A DNA stretch of 64,000 bases from Flavivirga eckloniae (GTDB lineage: Bacteria; Bacteroidota; Bacteroidia; Flavobacteriales; Flavobacteriaceae), in contig NZ_CP025791.1 of assembly GCF_002886045.1 (NCBI RefSeq), positions 1,138,001 to 1,202,000 of the forward strand. The letters run 5' to 3'. The position numbers and the translations under genes are program-made. The notes under the pieces were generated by a model, which was given only the letters and a program-made list of their open reading frames with translations, made no database searches and had not been told where the DNA came from. Of the stretch, positions 35,448 to 39,902 are shown one piece after another (the stretch's first letter is position 1; every line of letters starts with the position of its first letter).

Positions 35448-36221
35448 TTAAAGCTTCTTAGCCTCCTCCCAAAATACATCCATTTCTGCTAAAGACATAT
35501 CTTTTAAAGGCTTATTAATGGCCGTAGCCTTTTCTTCTAAGTATTGAAATCGTTTTGAGAACTTTTTATTGGTTCGTTCTAAAGCGTTTTCTGGGTTTAT
35601 ATTTAAAAATCTAGCATAGTTTACCATAGAAAACATAACATCTCCAAATTCGCTTTCTATAGCGTCTTGATTACCAGATTGTACCTCTGCTTTAAATTCG
35701 GCCAACTCCTCCTCTACTTTTTCCCAAACTTGATTAGGCTCTTCCCAATCGAAACCAACTCCGGCTACCTTTTCCTGAATTCTATTAGCTTTTACTAATG
35801 CAGGTAAACTTTTGGGCACACCTTCTAAAACACTTTTTTTACCTTCTTTTAGCTTTAAATTTTCCCAATTTCGTTTAACATCTTCCTCGTTCTCAACTTT
35901 TACATCGCCATAAATATGCGGGTGTCTGTTAATTAGTTTTTCGCAAATACTATTGCAAACATCGGCAATATCAAAATCGTTAGTTTCACTTCCTATTTTT
36001 GAATAAAAAACAATGTGCAACAACACATCCCCCAACTCTTTTTTTATTTCATCCAGATCGTTATCCAAGATAGCATCTCCTAACTCATAAGTTTCTTCAA
36101 TAGTCAAATGACGAAGCGTTTCCATGGTTTGTTTTTTATCCCATGGGCATTGCTCACGAAGTTCATCCATTATGGTTAACAGTCTATCGAAGGCTTTAAG
36201 TTGGTCTTGTCTGGAATTCAT
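35448..36221 (-). CDS. mazG: Nucleoside triphosphate pyrophosphohydrolase
   Basis: 257-residue MazG, which hydrolyses NTPs and dNTPs to monophosphates and pyrophosphate and can lower (p)ppGpp signalling under starvation. Two MazG-fold halves are visible. The N-terminal half (about 10-105) has QCPWDKKQTMETLRHLTIEETYELGDAI and the metal-binding EIKKELGDVLLHIVFY. The C-terminal half (about 150-245) has VEEELAEFKAEV and the second EFGDVMFSMVNYARFLNINPENALERTNKKF. Length is normal. It is transcribed toward the beta-flower-like gene, 26 bp apart, without a visible terminator between them. Confidence 0.96.
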   Translation of the reverse strand: MNSRQDQLKAFDRLLTIMDELREQCPWDKKQTMETLRHLTIEETYELGDAILDNDLDEIKKELGDVLLHIVFYSKIGSETNDFDIADVCNSICEKLINRHPHIYGDVKVENEEDVKRNWENLKLKEGKKSVLEGVPKSLPALVKANRIQEKVAGVGFDWEEPNQVWEKVEEELAEFKAEVQSGNQDAIESEFGDVMFSMVNYARFLNINPENALERTNKKFSKRFQYLEEKATAINKPLKDMSLAEMDVFWEEAKKL

Positions 36222-36404
36222 TTTAGAAATTTTTGTAAAAATACAATTTTGACAGCCTTAAATTGATAATAATTTATTCAAAAGCAATTAACAAATAATT
36301 TGTCCCCAAAAATTTAGTAGGAGCATTAAATACATTGTTTGATGTTGTAAGAAAAATACATTAACTTCGTTTAACAACCGATAAAGGTCATTAAAAACGA
36401 CTTA

Positions 36405-36412
36405 TATTTTTG
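36405..36412 (+). promoter_or_regulatory. Bacteroidota -7 promoter box upstream of the frameshifted C1-like gene
   Basis: TATTTTTG, an exact TAnnTTTG match ending 18 bp before the ATG at 36431. An intervening ATG at 36418 opens only a 3-codon frame. Confidence 0.55.
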
Positions 36413-36430
36413 CATCATGGGGAATTAAAA

Positions 36431-36583
36431 ATGGAAGAAGATATTGAAAAAGTATTAGAAGAGAATAAGCTTTTAAAGAGTAAGCTCAAAGATTATGAAA
36501 CTCTTGAGGAGGAGTTGATGGCTAAAAGAGTATTTGAAAAAGCTAAAAAAAACTTGTTCAATGGTACACAATTGGAGGAATAA
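36431..36583 (+). CDS. N-terminal 50-codon part of a frameshifted membrane-anchored C1-like protein
   Basis: This short ORF begins MEEDIEKVLEENKLLKSKLKD and is a charged amphipathic, probably coiled-coil, segment ending in TQLEE. It stands 18 bp after a promoter box with a well-placed ATG. At codons 39-41 it runs through A AAA AAC (36547-36553). A -1 slip there continues as KKLVQWYTIGGITLFVIGLFGIK, giving a transmembrane helix and then the papain-like ORF that otherwise has no ATG. I therefore read it as the 5' part of one gene. Without slippage it would yield a 50-residue peptide. Confidence 0.7.
   Translation: MEEDIEKVLEENKLLKSKLKDYETLEEELMAKRVFEKAKKNLFNGTQLEE
36547..36553 (+). other. Candidate -1 frameshift slippery heptamer A_AAA_AAC
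   Basis: The bases AAAAAAC lie in the frame A AAA AAC within an eight-A run. A slip by one base puts translation into the frame of the downstream ORF, which is open from 36547 onward. No convincing stimulatory stem-loop or internal Shine-Dalgarno was recognised. An 8-A run is also a common site for real indels, transcriptional slippage or sequencing error. Confidence 0.55.
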
Positions 36584-36585
36584 CC

Positions 36586-37491
36586 TTGTTTGTGATAGGG
36601 CTATTTGGAATTAAATCAGTTATTGACTATTCAAAAGAAATTGCTCAAAAGAGACTTAACGAAATTACAGAAGAACAGCTAAATCAGCTTTTACGGAATG
36701 AAACAGAAAACCAAGTAGCCACTCTTTTAAACTCAAAACAATCGATAATTGAAAGCCAATTAGAGGTATATACTAGACAGAAAATTTCCGAAATTAATAT
36801 CTCAACATCCCCAATTTCTGGATCAAGAAATACAATTTTAGACACTACAGTTGTTAGCGATATAAAAAGTAATGTTGATCATTCTAGCGATTATGGAATT
36901 GTTAAAGATCAAGGTTCAGAAGGTTCAACAGTAGCATTTGCGGTTACATCAGCCATAGAATTTTTATACTTAAAAAAGCAATCACTTAAGATAGATTTGA
37001 GTCCTAGATACTTATACAATAATATTAATAATGGACAGGATTATGGTGCTACTTTCGTTGATGCTTTTAATTTTTCTATAAAAACGGGAATTATAGAAAG
37101 TAGGTTTTGGGAATATAAGCCAGGGGAATATAAGCTAAAACCTCCCTCAGAGTCAAAAGATAAAAGACATTTTAAAATAAAATATTTCAGAAGAACTTCT
37201 AGTTCTATAGAAGAAACCAAGAATCTTCTAAATATAAATAAGGCTATTGTGTCAGGTTTGATTATTTATCAATCAAATTACAATAATAAGAATGGACTAA
37301 TGACTTACCCGAAAGTTGATGAACAACCTATGGGTGGACATGCTATTTGCTTGGTAGGATATGATGATAATAAACAACTTATCAAGTTTAAAAATTCATG
37401 GGGTAAAAATTGGGGTGATAATGGATATGGATATATAAGTTATGCAGATTTTGAAAAACTAGTAAAAGAATCATACTTAATCGAAATATAA
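36586..37491 (+). CDS. C1 (papain)-family peptidase-like protein with catalytic Cys replaced by Thr
   Basis: From the TTG at 36586 the frame gives 301 residues. It begins inside a membrane helix (LFVIGLFGIKSVI), continues with a coiled-coil stretch (about 15-70), then a papain fold (about 100-300). Compared with papain, the oxyanion glutamine is kept (KDQGSEGSTVAF, Q109). The cysteine of GSCWAF is threonine (T115) and the CG disulfide cysteine is glutamate. The histidine (GGHAICLVGYDD, H252) and asparagine (FKNSWGKNWGDNGYGYI, N270) are kept. It is probably a non-catalytic binding protein, membrane-anchored. The natural N-terminus is likely the ATG at 36431 joined by a -1 shift. The gene stands alone between mazG and a terminator. 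Confidence 0.8.
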   Translation: MFVIGLFGIKSVIDYSKEIAQKRLNEITEEQLNQLLRNETENQVATLLNSKQSIIESQLEVYTRQKISEINISTSPISGSRNTILDTTVVSDIKSNVDHSSDYGIVKDQGSEGSTVAFAVTSAIEFLYLKKQSLKIDLSPRYLYNNINNGQDYGATFVDAFNFSIKTGIIESRFWEYKPGEYKLKPPSESKDKRHFKIKYFRRTSSSIEETKNLLNINKAIVSGLIIYQSNYNNKNGLMTYPKVDEQPMGGHAICLVGYDDNKQLIKFKNSWGKNWGDNGYGYISYADFEKLVKESYLIEI

Positions 37492-37580
37492 AATCACTGG
37501 CAGCCTTACTTCTAATAAAAAAGCAAAATAACACTCGTTTAAACAAGCCACTAGCCAAGAGTTTAGACTGAGAATAAAAA

Positions 37581-37613
37581 AGACCTGTCAGGTTTTAAAA
37601 ACCTGACAGGTCT
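37581..37613. terminator. Bidirectional terminator between the C1-like gene and acnA
   Basis: A nearly perfect 33-bp palindrome with a 16-bp stem (AGACCTGTCAGGTTTT arm) separates two convergent genes and ends in T-rich sequence on both strands. Palindromes with this ACCTGACAGGT core recur in flavobacterial genomes. Confidence 0.8.
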
Positions 37614-37634
37614 CTACAAAAACTTAAACCTTAA

Positions 37635-39902
37635 TTAAGCGTTTTGTTTCTTAATCAAATTCAATGCAGAACCTTCTTTAAACCATTCTATCTGAGAATC
37701 GTTGTACGTATGGTTCAATTTAATTTCATTTTTACTACCGTCTGCATGTACAACTTCTAATGTTAGTTGCTTGCCGGGAGCAAATGCATTTAAATCTAGG
37801 AAGTTAAAGGTATCGTCTTCTTGAATTAAGTCGTAATCTGTCTCATTAGCAAATGTTAACCCTAACATCCCTTGCTTTTTAAGGTTTGTTTCATGAATTC
37901 GGGCAAACGACTTTACGATTACAGCTGCTACACCCAAGTGCCTTGGTTGCATGGCGGCGTGCTCGCGAGAAGATCCTTCTCCATAGTTATGATCACCAAC
38001 AACAATCGTTTTTATGCCTTCCTTTTTATATGCTCTTTGCACATCTGGTACGCCTCCGTAATCGCCTGTCAATTGGTTTTTAACAAAGTTTGTTTTTTGG
38101 TTAAAGGCATTTACTGCTCCAATCAACGTATTGTTAGCTATATTATCTAAATGACCACGGAAACGTAACCAAGGTCCCGCCATAGAAATATGGTCTGTAG
38201 TACACTTACCAAATGCTTTAATTAATAGTTTAGCACCAGTAATAGTATCTCCAAGAGGTACAAAAGGTGTTAATAATTGTAAGCGCTCCGAATCGTCTTT
38301 TACAACCACATTAACTCCGCTACCATCTTCAACTGGTTCTAAATAGCCATTATCTTTTACATCAAAACCTTTTGGAGGTAATTCCCATCCTGTTGGTTCA
38401 TCTAACATCACCTCTTCTCCATTTTCGTTGATAAGCTTATCTGTTAATGGATTAAAATCCAAACGTCCAGCAATAGCTATCGCGGCTGTTAATTCAGGTG
38501 AAGCAACAAATGCATGTGTATTTGGATTACCATCCGCACGTTTAGCAAAGTTTCTGTTAAACGAATGCACTATGCTGTTTTTAGGTGCATTTTTTGGATC
38601 GCTATATCTAGCCCATTGCCCTATACATGGCCCACAGGCATTCGTAAATATTTTGGCTTCTAATTTTTCGAATACTTCTAAAATACCATCGCGCTCTGCA
38701 GTAAAACGTACTTGCTCTGAGCCCGGATTAATACCAAACTCAGCTTTTGTTTTTAAGCCTTTATCTAAAGCTTGTTGGGCAATTGATGATGCGCGCGACA
38801 AATCTTCGTAAGATGAATTGGTACAAGACCCTATTAAGCCCCATTCTACTTTTAATGGCCATTCATTTTCAGTTGCTTTTTTGGTCATATCTGAACCAAC
38901 CTGAGTAGATAAATCTGGAGTAAATGGTCCGTTTAAAAGTGGCCCAAGTTCAGATAAATTTATATCAATAACCTGATCAAAATACTGTTCTGGATTCGCG
39001 TATACTTCGTCATCTGCAGTTAGATAATCTCTAACTTCATTAGCAGCATTAGCCACATCTGCTCTGTCTGTAGCTCGTAAATAACGATCCATAGATTCAT
39101 CATAGCCAAACGTAGATGTGGTCGCACCAATCTCTGCGCCCATGTTACATATAGTTCCTTTACCTGTACACGACATTGCTATTGCTCCCGGACCAAAATA
39201 TTCAACTATTGCCCCGGTTCCTCCCTTTACAGTAAGAATTTCGGCTACTTTTAAAATCACGTCTTTCGGAGCTGTCCAACCAGATAGTTTTCCTGTTAAT
39301 CGTACACCAATTAATTTAGGGAATTTTAACTCCCAAGCCATACCTGCCATAACATCTACGGCATCGGCTCCACCAACACCAATAGCAACCATTCCTAGTC
39401 CGCCAGCATTTACGGTATGTGAATCTGTACCAATCATCATCCCTCCAGGGAATGCATAATTTTCTAATACCACCTGATGGATAATACCGGCTCCTGGTTT
39501 CCAGAAACCTATACCATATTTATCAGAAACGGACTCTAAGAAGTTAAAAACTTCACTACTAACATTGTTAGCGTGTTTTAAATCTACAGCCGCTCCTACC
39601 TTTGCTTGAATTAAGTGATCGCAATGCACCGTTGTTGGCACTGCGACTTTAGATTTTCCAGCTTGCATAAATTGCAATAAAGCCATTTGCGCCGTAGCAT
39701 CCTGACATGCAATTCTATCTGGTGCAAAATCCACATAATCTTTTCCTCTTTCAAAGGCCTTGGTAGGTGTACCATCCCAGAGGTGATTGTACAATATTTT
39801 TTCAGAAAGTGTTAGTGGTCGTCCAACAATTTCTCGGGCAGCATCTACGCGGTCTTTCATTTTAGCGTAAACCCCTTTTATCATATCAATATCAAATGCC
39901 AT
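37635..39902 (-). CDS. acnA: Aconitate hydratase (AcnA/mitochondrial type)
   Basis: 755-residue [4Fe-4S] aconitase interconverting citrate and isocitrate in the TCA cycle, closest in length and pattern to the mitochondrial-type enzyme. The N-terminal iron-sulfur domains show [47 protein letters not shown], and the cluster cysteines in [13 protein letters not shown] and [10 protein letters not shown]. The C-terminal swivel domain carries [10 protein letters not shown] and [18 protein letters not shown]. It is 253 bp downstream of acnB on the same strand, separated by an inverted-repeat element. Confidence 0.94.

Follow-up and report, generated by a model that had tools for sequence, protein, structure and literature searches.

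A gene of Flavivirga eckloniae changes reading frame within a stretch of eight A residues and is thereby split in two. The split is best explained, at a probability of about 0.56, by an indel in the poly-A tract of one accessory gene for an anchored pseudopeptidase. Such a gene would encode a protein that begins with a coiled coil and continues through a single transmembrane helix and another helical stretch into a papain-fold domain lacking its catalytic Cys; this protein would probably be anchored in the membrane and serve there for binding. Roughly 115 nt past the start, the poly-A tract would have changed its length through a replication-slippage indel, and the frame would have been split by this event. 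The change in tract length may be recent, or it may be phase-variable. Two features were not expected: the loss of the catalytic Cys, and the predicted anchor architecture. All positions refer to the window, the 64,000-nucleotide stretch of DNA that was analysed (contig NZ_CP025791.1, positions 1,138,001 to 1,202,000 of the forward strand).

Geometry of the two frames

36431-36583, + strand: ORF A, with an ATG start, 50 codons, and a TAA stop at 36581-36583
36545-36552, + strand: 8-A run, where the frames switch, read from the sequence
36547-36553, + strand: A_AAA_AAC heptamer, in the X_XXY_YYZ slippery phase
36547-37491, + strand: -1 frame ORF of 314 codons, with its first ATG not before 37300

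Re-reading of the sequence confirmed the split-frame geometry given in the initial annotation, including all coordinates, the -1 offset, and the overlap. An in-frame TAA (36544-36546) directly precedes the -1 frame ORF, whose overlap with ORF A begins within the 8-A run and is confined to 36547-36583 (37 nt). The heptamer, which had been claimed as slippery, is in the correct phase and lies inside this overlap. Across 312 codons, the -1 frame contains no second lesion. The downstream ORF had been described as lacking an ATG; none is present before 37300, but the non-ATG starts TTG 36586 and GTG 36592 had not been mentioned. It had also been expected that the frame would be unbroken at 7 or 9 A, which is incorrect, as just one of these run lengths would join the frames.

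The overlap is so short (37 nt, with its beginning in the A run) that either event, indel or slip, would be placed within it; the coincidence of the heptamer with the switch therefore cannot tell them apart. The in-phase AAAAAAC is also common in this genome (55 in 215 ORFs, 95,168 codons). The case calls for caution: where the overlap begins in an A run, finding a heptamer in the correct phase at the switch is alone no argument for programming.

Coding signal and likely transmembrane helix

The codon-usage model was trained on 133 ORFs of at least 300 codons, drawn from a 360-kb part of this genome. The favoured frame changes at the A run, from frame 0 to the -1 frame. The first 40 codons of ORF A, which by eye form a charged, heptad-like stretch, had a codon score of 11.7. 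This value was reached by none of 1,792 stop-free off-frame windows; 91% of 2,095 coding windows, scored on largely the ORFs used for training, were at or below it. From 36551 to 36585, the scores were undecided between the frames (+1.1 over 10 codons vs +1.9 over 11 codons).

36556-36624, + strand: likely transmembrane helix VQWYTIGGITLFVIGLFGIKSVI, in the -1 frame, predicted by hydropathy; incomplete if the start is TTG 36586

The best 19-residue hydropathy (KD) was 1.92 for the product joined across the junction, and 1.01 for a product starting from the TTG. A helix that is complete only across the junction had been taken as an argument for one gene. This argument holds, but it is of moderate weight: random -1-frame pieces put upstream did as well in 202 of 1,442 cases (KD) and 89 of 1,442 cases (GES), a chance of 6-14%. 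Since both parts look coding and the helix is completed across the junction, ORF A and the -1 frame likely belong to a single gene, although this is not proven. Codon use, the helix across the junction, and a structural model that combines long low-confidence helices with a confident papain fold (see below) all agree with the one-gene reading of the initial annotation.

A papain-fold domain with Thr in the catalytic Cys column

36616-36798, + strand: long helical linker, with a second coiled-coil-like stretch (AlphaFold2)
36859-37488, + strand: papain (C1) fold domain (Pfam PF00112, AlphaFold2, Foldseek)
36928-36930, + strand: ACA (Thr) in the catalytic Cys column (alignment to relatives)

The domain matches PF00112 with E=7.1e-19 (69.2 bits vs a cut-off of 20.7); no NCBIfam family was assigned. 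The AlphaFold2 model, built from eight sequences, had a mean pLDDT of 78.4. Blocks of the papain domain ranged from 72 to 97, mostly at least 87, and the helices 2-39 and 42-84 were of low confidence (block pLDDT 45-67). The best Foldseek match for the papain domain was xylellain 3ois (E=1.1e-20).

The joined product (P0001) retains Gln122, His265, and Asn283, as the oxyanion Gln and the catalytic His and Asn, respectively. The alignment comprised 66 relatives with at least 150 domain residues, from the genus, GTDB-contig, family, and order-sample loci; class-sample loci were left out. The catalytic column is Cys in 62 of the 66 relatives; L013, L014, and L041 are out of register at this column and have a Cys nearby. 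His is found in 65 relatives, Asn in 66, and Gln in 66. The remaining one of the 66, L028, has Ser there; its protein looks secreted and lipoprotein-like. The second C1 gene in the same genome (L005) has its Cys, and so do the three plasmid relatives that were read (3 of 53 records). The peptidase fold named in the initial annotation was found, but with Thr in place of the catalytic Cys the domain is, on sequence grounds, most likely catalytically dead. On a Priestia megaterium plasmid, a C1 peptidase gene (L148) is followed by a gene annotated as an I42 protease inhibitor.

The C-terminal 210 residues share fold and sequence with the papain family C1 and xylellain 3ois, and the Gln, His, and Asn positions are the same. 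The protein differs from the C1 family in the Thr, and also in its predicted coil-TM-coil start, where many relatives have a signal- or lipoprotein-like peptide. By eye, other relatives have neither type of N-terminus, and no coil-TM-coil start was seen among the first 70 residues of the relatives.

Distribution and genomic context

No orthologue with this N-terminus was found in 12 genus, 397 family, 395 order, 395 relatives, and 345 class genomes; these samples overlap, and the own genome is counted in each. Matches, nearly all to the C1 domain only, were obtained in 3 of 12 genus and 44 of 397 family genomes. In the other samples, such matches came from 47 of 395 genomes of the order (joined query, E up to 0.01), from 35 of the 395 relatives, and from 71 of 345 genomes of the class. 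Among non-self matches of at least 150 residues, identity was at most 39%. Searching GTDB contigs by peptide patterns returned nine C1 loci, none with this N-terminus, and no match was found in viral contigs. The tblastn searches of plasmids and phages gave 53 and 36 records, respectively; the best 20 of each were looked at, and there was no orthologue among the matches listed.

Several candidates were rejected. The plasmid record H4, with 90% of the query covered among the matches listed, is by eye a Cys-bearing C1 protein without this N-terminus; H10 and H1, read alongside it (3 of 53 records), are also Cys-bearing C1 proteins by eye. G264, from the family sample, aligned from residue 31 (E=1.3e-28). 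By eye, its frame of 1,068 residues combines a C1 domain that has the Cys with a stretch resembling a coiled coil; no TM helix was seen in the part read. The match in G1030 reaches ahead of the domain, from residue 75. The N-terminal part also drew weak matches (E 0.01-1), which resemble ordinary coiled coils. Among the genomes searched, the gene is known from one species so far; there may be orthologues beyond the sampled genomes and the first-look search filter.

The split gene stands alone in the interval between two genes that we take, from their translations, to be mazG and acnA (36221-37635). While mazG was found in 12 of 12 genus genomes, own genome included, the papain-fold gene is absent from the mazG-acnA site in 11 of 11 siblings. 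In the sibling loci (L044-L060), the gap measures 113-306 bp in 6 of 11 siblings, and 2.8-4.3 kb with other genes in 5 of 11. These other genes presumably encode large secreted-looking proteins and, in some siblings, a small YtxH-like protein. The site is thus variable, and the split papain-fold gene at it is accessory. Synteny was also considered as a key to the split; it accounts for the presence or absence of the gene, not for the frame.

Slippery motif and A-run statistics

Motif counts were compared with synonymous shuffles of the 215 ORFs (95,168 codons), sampled from 400 kb of the own genome. The in-phase AAAAAAC was not avoided (55 observed vs 46.2±6.1 expected), and the in-phase AAAAAAG was in excess (62 vs 36.9; z 4.45). 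Long A runs were depleted in ORFs: 38 vs 76.8 expected for runs of at least 8, and 3 vs 26.0 expected for runs of at least 9. The heptamer is tolerated and long A runs are avoided; the genome statistics therefore direct attention to the A tract, as a site of polymerase slippage or of indel mutation, and away from a ribosomal motif. These counts also add a per-genome measure of avoided slippery motifs. TTTAAAG in slippery phase was over-represented in the own genome (z 3.69), and long T runs were depleted.

No stimulatory structure was detected in the 87 nt downstream, where non-pseudoknot folding was no better than that of shuffles (z=0.31). IS3-type transposases, as native controls for -1 frameshifting, were searched by PF13276 in the 12 genus genomes, and none were found. 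In E. coli, A_AAA_AAC is described as far less shift-prone than A_AAA_AAG in the sections consulted of PMC5009743 and PMC4066793; the latter includes one IS cluster with A_AAA_AAC as a proven frameshift case. The initial annotation had proposed a programmed site at the heptamer. This proposal was not supported: the samples gave no orthologue in which the heptamer and split frame could be seen to be conserved, no downstream structure was found, the heptamer is not avoided, and AAC-ended heptamers are weak in E. coli. The site resembles dnaX- or IS-type -1 programmed ribosomal frameshifting in the in-phase X_XXY_YYZ heptamer and in the longer -1 ORF. However, the second codon is AAG in those systems and AAC here, and no downstream stimulator was found here.

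For transcriptional slippage, the portion used of Baranov 2005 (PMC1088944) reports selection at 9 A in a large share of genomes, and terms 8 A a non-slippery pattern; slippage-prone runs are commonly at least 9, and the tract here has 8 A. The same portion also holds that IS elements with 8 A suggest productive slippage, and that disrupted genes are rescued at A runs. These 'pseudo pseudogenes' likewise consist of two frames joined at an A run. They differ from the present case, in which the run is of the length called non-slippery there, no unbroken relative is known, and the gene is seen as sequence alone. In E. coli and Buchnera, transcription insertions climb exponentially with homopolymer length, according to the part covered of PMC5574713; in Buchnera, that part reports no frame-restoring transcription error.

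Origin of the frame split

36574-36594, + strand: possible re-initiation site, with GGAGGA at 36574-36579, TAA at 36581-36583, TTG at 36586, and GTG at 36592

An isolated assembly or base-calling error, with the real gene unbroken, is very improbable. Sequencing errors arise at homopolymers, and the A run is a site of this error-prone kind. However, when 261 sibling ORFs were compared with 360 kb of this genome, 101 of them matched at full length (at least 65% identity) and no frameshift pair appeared; the reverse comparison of 237 ORFs gave 100 full-length matches and no such pair. An internal stop was flagged once per direction; the one in the own genome is the end of a gene, which we take to be FabH-like. 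The assembly completeness is 99.99%. With 101 conserved genes matched at full length and not one frameshift pair, homopolymer errors of a systematic kind are unlikely. An overlap scan of the 360 kb (no GTG filter, score limit 0.05) gave six overlapping frame pairs in which the downstream frame has no ATG nearby; a run of 8 lies in the overlap of this gene solely, a run of 7 in that of one other, and this too argues against an isolated error. There is slightly more room, although still little, for two overlapping genes: a 50-residue protein, and a papain-fold protein re-initiated at TTG 36586 (or GTG 36592). The TTG is 2 nt past the stop of ORF A and 6 nt past GGAGGA, and the codon scores of 36551-36585 show no clear frame preference. 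The consulted part of the GeneTack survey (PMC3711429) expects about 33% of orphan singletons to be gene overlaps, and the rest to be sequencing errors or indels, with recoded orphans possible. Nevertheless, GGAGG occurs ahead of 0 of 215 first-ATG ORFs in this genome, and AGGAG ahead of 1 of 215; ribosomes of Bacteroidia reportedly do not recognise Shine-Dalgarno sequences, as stated in the excerpt used of PMC9976891. The hydrophobic stretch of the re-initiated product would also be truncated, and the TM-like residues upstream of the TTG would be accidental, for which the chance is the 6-14% given above.

Slippage might instead produce some full-length anchored protein together with the 50-residue peptide; RNA polymerase, slipping at the A run, would be a likelier agent than a ribosome shifting by -1. 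We regard slippage of either kind as possible, yet rather unlikely. The tract and phase are correct, and selection against transcriptional slippage predicts the depletion of A runs of at least 8. The passages cited above on 8-A IS elements and A-run rescue (PMC1088944), on insertions growing with run length (PMC5574713), and on the proven IS cluster (PMC4066793) are also favourable. However, indel mutability predicts the same depletion, and the passages on selection often evident only from 9 A (PMC1088944), on poor shifting by AAC-ended heptamers (PMC5009743, PMC4066793), and on Buchnera (PMC5574713) are unfavourable, as are the tolerated heptamer, the downstream fold, and the result of the IS3 search. 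A plain indel in the 8-A run, which the initial annotation had named as the rival, accounts for the split no less well than a programmed slip would. It is consistent with the change of frame in codon usage at the A run, with the hydrophobic helix completed across the junction, and with the depletion of A runs of at least 8 and at least 9, as expected for unstable tracts. It also agrees with the absence of the gene between mazG and acnA in all 11 siblings and of orthologues with this N-terminus in the samples. In the consulted part of the GeneTack survey (PMC3711429), the clusters number 146 for recoding candidates and 4,010 for pseudogenes; for singleton frame transitions, the main causes expected there are errors, indels, and overlapping genes. 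The fit to the singleton classes in that part is imperfect, because the downstream part of the gene has database relatives and the upstream part has none, unlike the orphan class. Any lesion must also be recent, since no other lesion occurs in 312 codons. Moreover, slippage would equally need an 8-A tract and a matching heptamer exactly at the switch, and an unbroken ancestor is an assumption, as no unbroken relative was found.

The geometry is real and the two frames are probably one gene. Short of demonstrated expression, the most likely reading is a split accessory gene of an ordinary kind. It adds a papain-fold protein without its nucleophile, with an unusual predicted membrane-anchor architecture. 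If slippage were shown, this would be recoding outside mobile elements, in a phylum for which a literature search found little on that combination. It is conceivable, although doubtful, that slippage at the 8-A tract of this non-mobile gene fixes how much free coiled-coil peptide is made relative to membrane-anchored pseudopeptidase, with pairing through the shared coil as a dose regulator. A reversible A-tract length could add phase variation to such ratio control.

Flanking sequence elements

36405-36412, + strand: -7-like box TAtttttg, 18 nt from box to the ATG of ORF A
37579-37615, - strand: terminator-like palindrome AGACCTGTCAGGTTTT, between the papain-fold gene and acnA, 3' of acnA on the minus strand

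ORF A had been assigned its own promoter box. The TAtttttg resembles the Bacteroidetes -7 consensus TAnnTTTG, but no matching -33 element was seen upstream of it by eye. A generic sigma-70 scan was uninformative (8 sites vs 7.0 expected), and an Rfam search gave no match. One terminator-like palindrome was found, with 0.6 expected. Palindromes resembling that at 37579-37615 are also present in the mazG-acnA gap of the siblings L048 and L049, and a variant is present in L053.
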